DNA of 39,692 bases from Rhodocyclaceae bacterium (GTDB taxonomy: Bacteria; Pseudomonadota; Gammaproteobacteria; Burkholderiales; Rhodocyclaceae), in NCBI GenBank assembly GCA_905339315.1, contig CAJPFL010000041.1, forward strand, positions 1 through 39,692, in the 5' to 3' direction. The position numbers and the translations under genes are program-made. Numbering within the stretch: position 1 is the first letter of the stretch; the number at the start of each line of letters is the position of its first letter. The notes under the pieces are model-generated. The model saw only the letters and a program-made list of their open reading frames with translations. It had not been told where the DNA came from and ran no database searches. Positions 34,365 to 39,681 of the stretch are shown piece by piece.

Positions 34365-35056
34365 TACGCCTCCTTTCTGTCCAGCAGGATTTTTTCCGCC
34401 AGGGCGAGGTCGGCCGGATAGGTCACCTTCAGGTTGCTGGCGTCGGCGGACACCAGCAGCGGACGGTAGCCCAGCGCCTCCAGCGCGCCGGACTCGTCGG
34501 TGACGACCCCGCTCTGCTCGAGGGCCTCGCGCAGCAGGCCATAGCGGAACATCTGCGGCGTCTGCGCCTGCCACAGGGGCTCTCGCGGCACGGTCGCATC
34601 GATGCGACCGTCCTGCCCCGACTGCTTCAGCGTATCGGCCACCGGCACCGCAAGGATGCCGCCGACCTCGTCATGTCCAACCTGCTCGATCAGCCTGTCG
34701 AGCTGCGCCGACGACAGGCAGGGACGCGCCGCATCGTGCACCAGCACCCAGTCGTCCGGCTTCGCAAACGCCGAAAGGGCCAGCAGGCCGTTCAGCACGC
34801 TGCCCGCCCGCGTCGGCCCGCCGCAGCGCAGGACGGAAAGCTTGACGCCCAGTTCGCTCCAGTCGAAGCGTTCCCAGATGTCGTCCCGCTCGGCCAGGAC
34901 GACGAAGACGCGCTGGATCAGGGGTGAGGCACAAAGCACTTCGAGGGCGTGCCGGAGCATGGGCCGGCCGGCGAGCAGATGGTATTGCTTGGGCAGATCG
35001 TCGCCCATGCGCGTGCCCGATCCGGCGGCGGGCACCAAGGCAAAATTTCGAGACAT
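34364..35056 (-). CDS. ispD: 2-C-methyl-D-erythritol 4-phosphate cytidylyltransferase
   Basis: 230 aa from ATG 35056 ([25 protein letters not shown], the nucleotide-binding signature). It joins MEP to CTP, giving [17 protein letters not shown] and the C-terminal [17 protein letters not shown] are further marks. The frame extends upstream to 35137 without family-like sequence. No Shine-Dalgarno sequence precedes the ATG and the best -10 box implies a leaderless mRNA. First gene of ispD-ispF-thpR. Confidence 0.96.
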
Positions 35057-35062
35057 GACGGA

Positions 35063-35094
35063 ATTGTAATCGGATTGGAATCCGGCAGTAGAAT
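35063..35094. promoter_or_regulatory. Symmetric divergent promoter between ispD and the DUF4010 gene
   Basis: In a 45-bp gap both strands show -10-like boxes: TACAAT on the minus strand (35063-35068) and TAGAAT on the plus strand (35089-35094). Each overlaps the other's -35-like box (TTGTAA at 35064-35069; TTCTAC at 35088-35093), with 19-bp spacers. In the centre lies the palindrome CGGATTGGAATCCG (35071-35084). The boxes are moderate matches with long spacers, so this remains a suggestion. Confidence 0.35.
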
Positions 35095-35101
35095 TCGCGG
35101 A

Positions 35102-36361
35102 ATGGACATCTTCGAACAGCTCTCCGCGCCGCCACACCTGCAGGCCTTCATGACGAGCCTGGCCATCGGCCTGCTCATCGGCCTCGAGCGCGAGCGGCGC
35201 AGTTCGGCCAAGGCCGGTTTACGCACCTTCGCCCTGGTGGCCCTGCTCGGCACCCTCTCCGGCCTGCTGGCGGAAAAGACCGGCTCAGGCTGGATCCTCT
35301 CCGCCGGCCTGCTGTCGGTCGGCGCCATGATCATCGCCGCCTACATCAACCGGCCCGACGACGCCGGCGATTCGGGCACCACCTCCGTCGTCGCCATCCT
35401 GGTCTGCTTCTGCCTCGGCGCCGCCGTCTGGTTCGGCTACGGCACCCTGGCCGTGATGCTGGGCATCGCCACCACCGTCCTGCTGTATTTCAAAGCCGAG
35501 TTGCACGGCCTGTCGAGCCAGCTGACGTCGAAGGACCTCATCTCCATCCTGCAGTTCGCGGTGCTGACCTTCGTCATCCTGCCCATCCTGCCCGACCGCA
35601 ACTACGGCCCCTATGAGGCGCTCAACCCCTATCAGGCCTGGCTCATGGTGGTGCTGGTCTCCGGCGTCTCGCTCGCAGGCTATGCCGCCCTGCGTCTGGC
35701 CGGTCCGCAGCACGGCGCGCCGATGATGGGCCTGCTCGGCGGCCTCGTCTCGAGCACCGCGACTACCGTGGTCTTCTCCCGCCATGCCCATGCCCATGTC
35801 GCGCTGGCGCGCACCGCCATGGTGGTGATCATGATCGCCAGCCTGATGGTGCTGCTGCGTCTGACGGTGATGGCCGCCGTGGTGGCGCCCGACGTCATCG
35901 AGCCCCTCGCCAAGGTATTCGCCGGAGGGCTGGTGCTCGGCCTGGCCGTGACCGCCTTTGGCTGGCGCCGGCTGGAGGCGCAGGGGGAACTGCCCATGCC
36001 CGAGGTGCGCAACCCGACGGAAATCCGTACCGCGCTGGGCTTCGGCGCCCTCTACGCCGTGGTGCTGTTCTGCTCGGCCTGGCTGTCGGACGTGGCCGGC
36101 ACCAAGGGGATGTATGCCGTGGCGCTGGCGTCCGGGCTGACCGACGTCGACGCCATCACCCTCTCCAGCCTGCGCCTGTTCTCGATCGACAAGCTGTCGG
36201 CGGGGCAGGCTGTCACCGCAATCGCGCTCGCCGTGCTGTCGAACCTGACTTTCAAGGCCGGGCTGATCGTCACCCTCGGAGGCTGGAAGCTGGCGCGGCT
36301 CACCCTGCCGGCCATGCTGGCCGTCGCCGCGGGCATCGGCATCGGACTGTTTCTCGTATAG
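35102..36361 (+). CDS. MgtC/DUF4010 family membrane protein
   Basis: 419 aa integral membrane protein with roughly a dozen hydrophobic segments. The N-terminal part resembles the MgtC/SapB domain (LAIGLLIGLERERR, AGLRTFALVALLGTLSGLL); the C-terminal half fits DUF4010 (GLLGGLVSSTATTVVFSRHA, GMYAVALASGLTDVDAITLSSLRL). The buried charged and polar motifs suggest transport or ion handling, but no substrate is known. It is divergent from ispD and followed by the aminotransferase, which has its own promoter. Confidence 0.85.
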   Translation: MDIFEQLSAPPHLQAFMTSLAIGLLIGLERERRSSAKAGLRTFALVALLGTLSGLLAEKTGSGWILSAGLLSVGAMIIAAYINRPDDAGDSGTTSVVAILVCFCLGAAVWFGYGTLAVMLGIATTVLLYFKAELHGLSSQLTSKDLISILQFAVLTFVILPILPDRNYGPYEALNPYQAWLMVVLVSGVSLAGYAALRLAGPQHGAPMMGLLGGLVSSTATTVVFSRHAHAHVALARTAMVVIMIASLMVLLRLTVMAAVVAPDVIEPLAKVFAGGLVLGLAVTAFGWRRLEAQGELPMPEVRNPTEIRTALGFGALYAVVLFCSAWLSDVAGTKGMYAVALASGLTDVDAITLSSLRLFSIDKLSAGQAVTAIALAVLSNLTFKAGLIVTLGGWKLARLTLPAMLAVAAGIGIGLFLV

Positions 36362-36379
36362 ACCGATAAGCGGCTTGAC

Positions 36380-36408
36380 TTGGGCCGGCATCGCGGCACA
36401 GGTACAAT
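36380..36408 (+). promoter_or_regulatory. Putative sigma-70 promoter of the aminotransferase gene
   Basis: TTGGGC (36380-36385) and TACAAT (36403-36408) are 17 bp apart in the 82-bp gap. A better -35 hexamer, TTGACT at 36375-36380, overlaps it but would give a 22-bp spacer. The leader would be about 30 nt. Confidence 0.5.
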
Positions 36409-36443
36409 ACGGCCGCGTTTTCTTTCCTGGTTTCCGACCCGAC

Positions 36444-37652
36444 ATGACAGCCTCGATTTTCGCAGCGGTGGAACTGGCTCCCCGCGACCCCATCCTTGGC
36501 CTGAACGAAGCATTCAACGCCGATGCGCGCACGACCAAGGTCAATCTCGGCGTCGGCGTGTATTGCGACGACAGCGGCAAGATTCCCCTGCTCGCCGCCG
36601 TGCGCGCGGCGGAAAGGGCCCGCCTCGAAGCCATGCCGGCGCGCGGCTACCAGCCGATCGAGGGCCCGGCCAGCTACAACCAGGCCGTGCAGAACCTGAT
36701 CTTCGGCGCCGATTCCGCCCTGCTCAAGGACGGCCGCGTCGTCACCGTCGAGGCGCTCGGCGGCACCGGCGCCCTCAAGGTCGGCGCGGATTATCTCCGG
36801 CGCCTGCTGCCCGGGGCCGCCGTGCATATCAGCGACCCGAGCTGGGAGAATCACCGCGCCCTGTTCGAGTCGGCCGGCTTCCGCGTCGAGAACTACCCCT
36901 ACTACGACGCTGCCACGAAAGGCGTCAACTTCGCCGGCATGATGGCCTGCCTGGCCGGGCTGCCGGCTGGCTCGATCGTCGTCCTGCACGCCTGCTGCCA
37001 CAACCCGACCGGCGCCGACCTCTCCGAAGCGCAATGGCAGGAAGTGGTCGGGATCGTCGGCGCGCGCGGCCTGGTCGCCTTCATCGACATGGCCTACCAG
37101 GGCTTCGCCGACGGCATCGAGCCGGACGCCCTGGCGCTCAGGCTGTTCGCCGCCTCCGGCCTGCAGTTCTTCGTCTCCAGCTCCTTCTCGAAGTCCTTCT
37201 CGCTCTACGGCGAGCGCGTCGGCGCGCTGTCCATCGTCACCGCCAGCAGGGACGAATCGGCGCGCGTCATGTCGCAGGTGAAACGCGTCGTCCGCACCAA
37301 CTACTCCAACCCGCCGACCCACGGGGGCGCCGTGGTGGCGGCGGTGCTTGCCAGCCCGGAGCTGCGCAAGCTGTGGGAGGAAGAACTGGCCGGCATGCGC
37401 GAGCGCATCCGCGCCATGCGCACCGGCCTGGTCGACAAGCTCAAGGCACGCGGCGTGGCACAGGACTTTGCCTTTGTCGCCAGGCAGCGCGGCATGTTTT
37501 CCTACACCGGCCTGACGGCCGAACAGGTCGAGCGCCTGAAGTCGGAGTTCGGCATCTATGCCGTCAGCACAGGGCGCATCTGCCTCGCCGCGCTGAACAC
37601 GCGCAACCTCGATTACGTCGCCGACGCGATCGCTGCCGTCATCAGGAAATAA
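36444..37652 (+). CDS. tyrB: Aspartate/aromatic amino acid aminotransferase (class I)
   Basis: 402 aa from ATG 36444. It is a PLP enzyme of the AspC/TyrB type: APRDPILGLNEAFNADARTTKVNLGVGVY at the N-terminus, GGTGALKVGADYL, HACCHNPTGADL and the PLP lysine K250 in SSSFSKSFSLYGERVGAL; NYSNPPTHGG and RQRGMFSYTGL complete the family pattern. It moves amino groups between aspartate or aromatic amino acids and 2-oxoglutarate. TyrB and AspC cannot be separated safely by eye. The gene is its own unit, with a promoter and terminator. Confidence 0.92.
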   Translation: MTASIFAAVELAPRDPILGLNEAFNADARTTKVNLGVGVYCDDSGKIPLLAAVRAAERARLEAMPARGYQPIEGPASYNQAVQNLIFGADSALLKDGRVVTVEALGGTGALKVGADYLRRLLPGAAVHISDPSWENHRALFESAGFRVENYPYYDAATKGVNFAGMMACLAGLPAGSIVVLHACCHNPTGADLSEAQWQEVVGIVGARGLVAFIDMAYQGFADGIEPDALALRLFAASGLQFFVSSSFSKSFSLYGERVGALSIVTASRDESARVMSQVKRVVRTNYSNPPTHGGAVVAAVLASPELRKLWEEELAGMRERIRAMRTGLVDKLKARGVAQDFAFVARQRGMFSYTGLTAEQVERLKSEFGIYAVSTGRICLAALNTRNLDYVADAIAAVIRK

Positions 37653-37695: not shown

Positions 37696-39507
37696 TTACC
37701 GCCCGCGGCTTTGCGTAAGCTGCGGGGCTTTCGCCGTGCCGCCGATGGCGAGCGGCATCCGCACCACGGCTGCCGAGCTCTTCAGTTCGACGTTCATCGC
37801 CCCACCCAGTTTCCCGTCGCGGGCGATGCCGAGATTGCCGCCGGCCGTCAGCAGGCCGGAAGTCAGGCGCAGGTCGCCGAGGCGGCTCTCCTGCTGGCCG
37901 TACTGGATCACGCCGGTCAGCTGCTCGAACTTCGTTTCGCCGCCGCGCGCCACTGCGCGCCCGCTGCTGCGCGCCGCCTCGATCAGATCGAAGCCCCTGG
38001 CAGCACCCCGCTTGATTTCGAATCCCCCGCCGACGCGCAAGGCCTCGCCCAGACTGTCCAGCCTGTCTGCCTTGGCATCGAGCTTCAGTCGGGCGCTCAG
38101 TTCCCCTTCCGTCAACAAGTCCGATCCGAGCGCTGCCAGCAGCCTGGTCGAATTCATGTGCTTGAGTTCCAGGTTGCCGGCGAGAACCGCGCCGCCCGCC
38201 CAACCCAATGCTGCCTTGCCTTCGATCAGTCCCTCATAGGCCCTGCCATCGAATTTGCTCAATTCCAGCTGCGAAGGCTGCAGCACCCCCTGCGCCTCGA
38301 TTGCCTGGAATATCAGCGTCGGCTTGAAGGGTGTTTTCCAGTTGCTGCCGGATGCCGTGAACAGAAACCCCTCTCCCTTCGGCTGCATGTCGAGCTTGAG
38401 CGAGCCGTCGGCATTGCGCAGCAGAATCTTCTCTGGCGCGCCTGCGGAAGTCATCAGCACTTCCCCGCCGAAGCCGCTGAGAACCACATCGCCAATCGTC
38501 AGCCGAATGCCATTGAGGGTGATACGGCGAATCTCCGCCGTTGCGGCCCCGGCCAGGGCCAGCCGGCCCAGGCCGGCATTGCTCACGGCGACATCGCTGA
38601 GGGCCAGTTCGTGAAACACCTTTCTGGCGCCCAGCAACGAGAAGAAATCCGGCACCGCACGCACTGAAGCGATGGTCAGGTGCGCTTCCTTCCCGACCGT
38701 GATGTTGTTCAAGGCGATATGCGGGTGCGGCAAGAAATTGAAGCCGATCCCGCCCACCTTCACCGGATCCTGCAGCATGGCAGAAGCATTGCGCTCGATA
38801 TCCGGCAAATGACGGCCGTAGGGATAGAACAGCAAACCCAGCAGCAGCAGCGCGGCGAGACCGACGAAGGCGATGAGGACAAGCTTGGGCAAACTGACGG
38901 AAATCCCCGGACCACCGACGGTCGGCGCCTGTTCAGGCGCGTCATTGGCCGGGTCATCCCCGGAATCCTTTGTTTTGGCATTCTTGGGCTTGCTGGCCGA
39001 TTTTTCCAGCTTGCCCGCAAGCTGGGCCCTGATCCGTTCAGTCCACCCCCGGGCGGCAGAAACCGTTGGCTGATCGTGCCTTGGCGATTCTCCCGGAAGG
39101 CCGGGCGGCGGCAGGGATTCATACTCCGGCGGGTGCAGTTCGATTTCCTCGATATCCGGCGGCAAGGTGGGTGGCGGTTCGGGGACGGGGTTCTGGTCGG
39201 GCGGCGCGCCGACCTGCGCGGTCAGGACCGGCACGTCTTCGGCCTTTTCCGACGGGTCATCAGGAGGGGGGGTTACCGTGAAGTCCAACTGATTGGCGGG
39301 CTCGGCGATGAAGCCACCTGCCAGCAATTCGCCCAGGGCGGCCTGCGCCACGTTCTCGTCGCCGAAGCGCCTGCACAGGTCGGCCACGGAGGCATGACCG
39401 TCGACCATGATGAGGATGTTGCGCAGATTGCGCTGAACCAGGCGGGTGCGCTGGCGCATCGCCTCATCCCCCTCCTTGGTTTTCACGAAAACGGTTTTCT
39501 TGTCCAT
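37696..39507 (-). CDS. AsmA-like membrane protein with N-terminal cytoplasmic domain
   Basis: 603 aa from ATG 39507 (MDKKTVFVKTKEGDEAM); a TTG at 39525 is a weaker option. Three parts are visible. Residues 1-75 are a compact, probably helical or winged-helix domain (LVQRNLRNILIMVDGHASVADLCRRF, then ALGELLAGGFI). Residues 75-205 are a low-complexity linker, first Pro/Glu-rich, then Lys/Asp-rich. One membrane segment (about 208-233, LPKLVLIAFVGLAALLLLGLLFYPYG) is followed by a periplasmic AsmA-type region of repeated beta-strand blocks (GGIGFNFLPHPHIALNNITVGK, LRVGGGFEIKRGAARGFDLIEA). AsmA relatives move lipids or act in outer-membrane assembly; the role of this protein is unknown. Confidence 0.8.
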   Translation of the reverse strand: MDKKTVFVKTKEGDEAMRQRTRLVQRNLRNILIMVDGHASVADLCRRFGDENVAQAALGELLAGGFIAEPANQLDFTVTPPPDDPSEKAEDVPVLTAQVGAPPDQNPVPEPPPTLPPDIEEIELHPPEYESLPPPGLPGESPRHDQPTVSAARGWTERIRAQLAGKLEKSASKPKNAKTKDSGDDPANDAPEQAPTVGGPGISVSLPKLVLIAFVGLAALLLLGLLFYPYGRHLPDIERNASAMLQDPVKVGGIGFNFLPHPHIALNNITVGKEAHLTIASVRAVPDFFSLLGARKVFHELALSDVAVSNAGLGRLALAGAATAEIRRITLNGIRLTIGDVVLSGFGGEVLMTSAGAPEKILLRNADGSLKLDMQPKGEGFLFTASGSNWKTPFKPTLIFQAIEAQGVLQPSQLELSKFDGRAYEGLIEGKAALGWAGGAVLAGNLELKHMNSTRLLAALGSDLLTEGELSARLKLDAKADRLDSLGEALRVGGGFEIKRGAARGFDLIEAARSSGRAVARGGETKFEQLTGVIQYGQQESRLGDLRLTSGLLTAGGNLGIARDGKLGGAMNVELKSSAAVVRMPLAIGGTAKAPQLTQSRGR

Positions 39508-39561
39508 TTTTCTTATGCCAGCCAAGTAATTGCGGCGATTCCGATTCTACACTCGAACAAC

Positions 39562-39605: not shown

Positions 39606-39681
39606 TCCCCGATAGCTCAGTTGGTAGAGCAACGGACTGTTAATCCGTGTGTCCCTGGTTCGAGCCCAGGTCGGGGAGCCA
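39606..39681 (+). tRNA. tRNA-Asn (anticodon GTT)
   Basis: A 76-nt cloverleaf: acceptor stem TCCCCGA pairing with TCGGGGA, D-arm AGCTCAGTTGGTAGAGC, anticodon loop CTGTTAA with anticodon GTT, T-arm CCTGGTTCGAGCCCAGG and encoded CCA. It decodes AAC/AAU. It is probably the first or only gene of its transcript; the window ends 11 bases later. Confidence 0.97.

Follow-up and report, generated by a model that had tools for sequence, protein, structure and literature searches.

The minus-strand gene at 37696–39507 of the window (the whole stretch of DNA analysed, 39,692 nucleotides of contig CAJPFL010000041.1 from a Rhodocyclaceae bacterium) encodes a protein of 603 residues, read from the ATG at 39507 and followed by a stop codon, in which an N-terminal domain (ND), a linker and a membrane helix precede an AsmA-type part. 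We consider it an inner-membrane protein of the AsmA superfamily, probably a carrier of phospholipid from the inner to the outer membrane, with an added docking arm in the cytoplasm; the probability we attach to this reading is roughly 0.55. Both the lipid transfer and the docking to a putative partner are what we infer. The docking arm is favoured because the ND is highly constrained, the spacer is flexible or helix-like, a linear motif often follows the ND and the fold is one for protein contacts.

Gene layout, topology and the AsmA-type part

The ND comprises residues 1–72 (39292–39507, on the minus strand like all features of the gene), is predicted to be a winged helix and carries the motif KTxxGxEA...R...LR..LI.VDG. 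It is followed by a disordered, proline-rich linker (residues 73–205, 38893–39291), a single membrane helix at about residues 206–227 (38827–38892) and a beta-rich AsmA-type part, predicted to be periplasmic and recognised from profiles and the model (residues 228–603, 37699–38826). The hydropathy scan gives one membrane segment, at 209–227, and the structure model a helix at 206–226, so that about 205 residues precede the helix, as the initial annotation had stated for this AsmA-like protein. The layout it had described, with a cytoplasmic domain, a linker, one membrane helix and an AsmA-type part, is likewise supported by prediction and is widespread among relatives. A comparison of the window protein with a plasmid collection gave no match.

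Upstream of the ATG at 39507 there is an in-frame TTG at 39525. Of 24 related loci from named records, 22 have an ATG where the alignment places the first residue, the other two being a partial match (L078) and a locus with a different codon at this position (L083); the ATG at 39507 is the conserved start. A start just before the membrane segment disagrees both with this conservation and with the substitution rates, the ND having the lowest dN/dS of the three gene parts in all seven pairs compared. The values are 0.08–0.25 for the ND, 0.21–0.61 for the linker and 0.21–0.41 for the membrane helix and AsmA-type part together. The ND is the most constrained part of the gene, above the lipid-transfer part.

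Among the fetched relatives in which the ND is fused to an AsmA-type part, one membrane segment is found in 46 out of 46; it immediately precedes the AsmA-type part except in L099, where the matched AsmA stretch is farther away. Lysines and arginines are more numerous in the 20 residues before the segment than after it in all 45 fusions whose segment could be assigned to a position close to the AsmA start, which excludes L099. The membrane helix of the window protein has one such residue before it and two after it; its topology is therefore taken from the relatives, whose charge bias suggests that the N-terminus is inside and the C-terminus outside. The hydropathy threshold was also passed inside the ND of 2 of 27 short ND proteins, which was taken as false.

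On its own, the window protein matches the Pfam AsmA model (PF05170) with an E-value of 7e-4 and 19 bits, below the cut-off of 29.8. In the 25-member alignment of relatives, the window protein included, 23 members match AsmA at E ≤ 0.01 (best 3.9e-17) and 20 match YhdP at the same threshold (best 3.7e-8); judged by this homology, the protein belongs to the AsmA superfamily. The model of the AsmA-type part contains 22 strands, from residue 249 to 599. A Foldseek search of the PDB with the whole-protein model returned nothing at E ≤ 0.001. In VIA-align, residues 207–386 aligned with LPD-3 (Z 7.2), residues 231–386 with Vps13 (N-terminal fragment, 7.2), residues 231–367 with N-terminal fragments of Atg2 (6.9–7.0) and residues 288–602 with TamAB (6.5); porins reached Z-scores of up to 9.0, level with or above Vps13, Atg2 and TamAB, and no solved structure of AsmA or YhdP was among the matches listed, an absence that carries no weight either way. 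Because porins score as high and Foldseek gave no match at its threshold, the reading as a lipid groove is based on sequence homology. The fold data obtained here are not decisive by themselves, but a lipid-transfer fold is supported by the published link between the N-termini of AsmA and TamB and the chorein-N domain of Vps13, as set out in part of PMC6791001. From its family membership, the AsmA-type part may be expected to bridge lipids.

The same part could instead be an assembly or scaffold factor and not a lipid conduit. Its predicted periplasmic portion of about 375 residues may not span the periplasm alone, and the indecisive fold comparison also fits such a role, for which the type II secretion system protein GspN, reportedly the subject of a paper surfacing alongside AsmA, was counted as well. 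The homology to AsmA and YhdP, the alignments with the Vps13 and Atg2 fragments and the MsbA-related exporter gene that comes after the fusion gene in one family (f22, see below) all argue against it, and we regard a scaffold as highly unlikely.

Predicted fold and charge of the N-terminal domain

Modelled alone from 20 sequences, residues 1–72 have a mean pLDDT of 85.6, with helices at residues 11–18, 26–34, 41–48 and 51–63. The compact N-terminal domain claimed earlier, at about 75 residues, thus folds alone in the model, and disorder of this part, which would have spoken against the claim, is contradicted by the confident prediction. Searches of Pfam and NCBIfam with the ND provided no name for the domain, a match to ApbA at E 0.033 being treated as noise, and Foldseek against the PDB with the ND model returned nothing at E ≤ 0.001. 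Its first six rows, with probabilities of 0.97–0.99, were chains of GATOR1 and KICSTOR, FAM91A1 and the Clostridium protein 3k9t. VIA-align, which was a second look at Foldseek's own list, superimposed the ND on chains of the GATOR1/KICSTOR and SEA complexes with Z-scores of 7.8–9.4 (rmsd 2.1–2.4, 70–72 residues aligned); the matched rows name the complexes only, and we assume the chains of GATOR1 and SEA to be NPRL2/NPRL3. Further matches were 3k9t (Z 7.8), the N-terminal domain of FAM91A1 (7.7), a methyltransferase (7.5), and, for TruD (6.5) and TigE (6.2), N-terminal regions that we take to be RRE domains. Winged helices linked to DNA were also in the list: the DNA helicase PriA (7.3), an RNA polymerase III subunit (6.8), Lrp (5.7), TubR (4.8) and LexA (4.5). 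When a profile of 53 ND sequences was compared with the PDB, PqqD (5sxy) came first, with an E-value of 3.7e-4 over 37 profile positions. The ND is a predicted winged helix and, on account of the fold and PqqD profile matches, would be of a kind that often binds proteins or peptides; from the model, a binding role is plausible.

In ToxR and CadC, a cytoplasmic N-terminal winged helix is followed by a linker, one membrane helix and a periplasmic part, and the predicted order of parts in the window protein matches this. The main functional rival to the docking arm is therefore a membrane-integrated one-component regulator of this layout, in which the winged helix would bind DNA and the AsmA-type part would sense the state of the lipids or the envelope. 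Some of the 53 single ND rows show weak matches to helix-turn-helix models, 13 of them to HTH_47 (best 3.2e-5) and seven to HTH_24 (best 8.2e-6), which favours such a regulator, as does the presence of PriA, Lrp, TubR and LexA in the fold list. The charges point the other way. Over the 53 sequences, the mean net charge is −1.15 at the position of the recognition helix, with +1.6 for the whole domain; helix 51–63 of the window protein contains neither lysine nor arginine, and the conserved basic residues are in the first half of the domain instead. An acidic recognition-helix position is unlike that of a DNA reader and argues against DNA binding, although charge is no proof. The best fold matches, moreover, are subunits of protein complexes, and we hold such a regulator to be quite improbable.

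Spacers, distribution and gene neighbourhood

In the structure model, the linker of the window protein has pLDDT values below 50 at residues 72–106, 136–153 and 169–201 and in short stretches between these. Its description as a low-complexity linker is right insofar as it is mostly disordered in the model, but it also contains short conserved motifs: LDFT (residues 74–77, 39277–39288), PVLT (residues 93–96, 39220–39231) and EEIELHPPEYESLPP (residues 120–134, 39106–39150), which covers the patterns EEIxL and PEYESxPP. In the 25 short-spacer rows, from the window and 24 loci, EEIxL occurs in 14, PEYESxPP in 10 and P[VILE]LT in 13, where shuffling predicts 0.11, 0.0 and 0.38, and the pattern [LF]DF[TS] is found 4–45 residues after the ND in 39 of 72 ND-AsmA fusions (0.07 expected); the rows of all these counts are related, hence the counts are not independent. 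The 72 fusions comprise the 46 fetched ones, 25 others from the window and the named loci, and one more, L028. Since this last is the gene of L091 again, the distinct genes number 71, of which 38 have the motif. The exact LDFT motif is absent from the other 33 of the 72. It is present with both short and long spacers, in 6 of 8 ND proteins cut by the edge of the fetched stretch and in a single one of the 27 short ND proteins. A model helix at residues 155–168 was considered as an amphipathic helix and rejected, the best hydrophobic moment not exceeding that of the shuffled linker (p 0.18–0.92, 10 proteins).

The spacers of the 46 fetched fusions are of two kinds, seven of them having 86–152 residues and 39 having 365–1,235. 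In the long ones, charges four residues apart (i/i+4) are anticorrelated in 39 of 39 (−0.56 to −0.96, z < −3), and charges at i/i+8 show a positive correlation (z > 3) in all but one of the 39. For 31 of these spacers the best sequence period is 8, for four it is 14, for two 16 and for two 18, and the composition is a median 11% hydrophobic and 2% proline plus glycine. A charge pattern of period 8 with opposite charges at i/i+4 is the signature of a single alpha-helix, and the sequences of the relatives' long spacers have a charge pattern like this. A coiled coil is disfavoured, as a best period of 7 is found in none of the 39, even if the four spacers of period 14 and a lag-7 charge correlation with z > 3 in 13 of the 39 are signals on the coiled-coil side. 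The spacer of the window protein does not have the single-alpha-helix pattern, its linker being disordered; disorder is also the type of its relatives, whereas in most other families the spacer resembles a single alpha-helix. The long spacers, in L121 (about 1,235 residues), L126, L132, L115 and 35 others, are charged, rich in alanine and predicted to be cytoplasmic; among relatives, as many as about 1,280 residues precede the membrane helix (L121). With 0.15 nm per residue, the longest spacer could extend to about 170 nm (1,156 residues).

A vague association of the ND with other betaproteobacterial proteins had been noted initially and is borne out: of 300 genomes sampled from the window's order, 141 have the ND at E 1e-4. 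Loci were fetched for the best 80 matches of the order list, leaving out the window's genome and G034. These contain 82 ND open reading frames, namely 46 AsmA fusions, 27 short ND proteins (fewer than 260 residues from the ND), eight cut by the edge of the stretch and one longer protein without AsmA (L130). In the 27 short proteins, a helical domain accompanies the ND. By eye, seven of the eight cut proteins run into a long charged linker, and one is an edge fragment. Each of the 46 fusions is from a different genome, and 15 families are represented among them; the short proteins are from 24 genomes of 12 families, and eight genomes have both. Five larger ND open reading frames, one of which is the gene of L130 again, have no AsmA match and are of the short type by eye, and a Pfam search with five short ND proteins gave no match at E 0.01.

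In a sample of the class, the ND is present in 21 of 274 genomes, 18 of them outside the window's order; the 19 loci examined from this sample (one from the order; flanks of about 1.5 kb) gave no AsmA match, and their ND open reading frames from outside the order reach at most 337 residues. In a sample of the phylum, the 13 ND-bearing genomes out of 299 all belong to the same class. Given these results, the ND is more widely spread as a short protein, and in the samples searched its fusion to AsmA is seen in the window's order only. L170–L187 are stand-alone short ND proteins of class members outside the order. The window's own genome (77% complete) encodes two further ND proteins, of 277 and 152 residues, both consisting of the ND and helical-looking segments. 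Short ND genes of this genome are located on the minus strand at 880–1710 of L002, where a GroEL-like gene adjoins (by eye), and at about 1252–1707 of L003.

Coexistence of fusion and short protein in the eight genomes mentioned, and the two short proteins of the window's genome, would fit an ND that has no dedicated outside partner and pairs with short ND proteins, or else associates with itself, clustering or stabilising the AsmA protein. The origin of the ND fold matches in multi-subunit complexes is in line with self-association, which however leaves the conserved LDFT motif and the very long helix-like spacers unexplained; we think an ND of this kind unlikely.

A tree was calculated for 81 AsmA parts, with a midpoint root and many open forks. 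The long-spacer rows share a branch (49 rows, support 94/97) with four rows without an ND and with L118, whose spacer is short. Around this branch, with no single supported fork, are the short-spacer rows of f1, the family of the window, and a short-spacer group from f14 straddles the midpoint root. Family f1 has both spacer types, since its long-spacer rows (L093, probably also L031 and L032, both cut) are inside the long-spacer branch. Five AsmA homologues in the tree have no ND, and one of these, L020, is nested among ND-bearing short-spacer Rhodocyclaceae, a position that suggests loss of the ND; the domain thus appears to be dispensable in some lineages.

Across the mapped ND-AsmA loci, from which neighbourhood clusters and maps based on wrong-frame open reading frames were left out, no neighbour gene is common to all families. 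In the window, the neighbours are a convergent class I/II aminotransferase gene (36375–37652) and a tRNA-Asn gene (39606–39681), and neither names a partner. The convergent aminotransferase gene recurs in Rhodocyclaceae (window, L079, L081 and L090), which implies no functional link. Between ispD and this gene, the window encodes an MgtC plus DUF4010 membrane protein (34949–36361), and tRNA genes are found at both of its ends, those for Gly, Cys and Leu on the left (17–352) and the one for Asn on the right. By eye, a two-component cluster resembling glrK-qseG-glrR is located upstream of the ND-AsmA gene in two of eight loci mapped (L079, 912–6779; L081, 1363–6773).

In family f22, the next gene on the same strand after the fusion gene encodes an MsbA-related ABC exporter in eight loci out of eight (L099, L105, L106, L114, L118, L135, L144 and L154). 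The best NCBIfam match of all eight exporters is TIGR02204, above the cut-off in seven (L154 is 4 bits below), and the curated model for the lipid A exporter stays below its cut-off in all eight. Such an exporter gene after the fusion gene is seen in f22 only, the other families having other genes there; the remaining five loci of the exporter BLAST cluster are short-ND loci with different ABC proteins. For that family, the gene order fits a role in lipid export, and the exporter and the ND-AsmA protein are possibly a pair of flippase and bridge.

Proposed role and comparison with known systems

For the docking arm that we prefer, the mechanism would be as follows. The ND and the LDFT motif would bind a protein partner in the cytoplasm or near the membrane, and not DNA, while the spacer, disordered or helix-like, would set the reach of the ND. 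Docking to the partner may then recruit the AsmA-type part to a site or gate it from the cytoplasm, and the AsmA-type part, as its sequence homology suggests, would move phospholipid from the inner towards the outer membrane. More tentatively, we can imagine a cytoplasm-controlled AsmA lipid bridge in much of the order, with the ND and LDFT as a hand on a disordered spacer or a rigid helix of up to about 170 nm, and with a partner from lipid synthesis, the division site or the cell pole that places or gates the delivery of lipid to the outer membrane; this wider proposal is possible, though somewhat doubtful.

A 2026 study of E. coli (PMC12977461) describes enrichment of YhdP, TamB and YdbH at the poles of the cell and regards the way in which they are positioned and controlled as an open question. 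A search of open-licence papers listed none that deals with AsmA proteins having a domain in the cytoplasm. The analysis defines an unnamed, conserved domain that is common in the order and, in relatives, very long spacers of single-alpha-helix pattern on the predicted cytoplasmic side. A strongly conserved, folded cytoplasmic domain is a hint that the cell can place or control this lipid machinery from its inner side, and such a conserved handle, of one domain and one short motif, would offer a direct route to what recruits or gates AsmA-type transporters.

The proteins of the AsmA superfamily (AsmA, YhdP, TamB, YdbH, YicH and YhjG) likewise combine a single membrane helix with a beta-rich AsmA-type part behind it. 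According to part of PMC10900882, the membrane helix is usually N-terminal and anchors AsmA-like proteins in the inner membrane, and it is predicted in all those of P. aeruginosa; the window protein instead begins with about 205 residues that include a folded domain. The winged helices of GATOR1/SEA (NPRL2/NPRL3 type, as we assume) and FAM91A1 are the best fold matches of the ND (Z 7.7–9.4, with nearly the whole domain aligned), but they are eukaryotic, come from an unrelated context and have at most 21% identity to the ND over 70–71 residues. With PqqD and the RRE domains, the ND shares the winged-helix core, as the PqqD profile match and the Z-scores of 6.2–6.5 for TruD and TigE indicate. 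RRE domains have an N-terminal three-stranded beta-meander before the helices, which is absent from the ND model, where strand is found only at residues 6 and 8–9 and helix 11–18 precedes the core. From ToxR and CadC, the window protein differs, despite the shared order of parts, by the acidic recognition-helix position and the AsmA-type periplasmic part. Finally, ER/K single alpha-helices and domain II of TolA are the systems with which charged helices of period 8 can be compared; the long spacers of the relatives have a period-8 pattern like theirs, absent from the window protein, and are here predicted to be on the cytoplasmic side.
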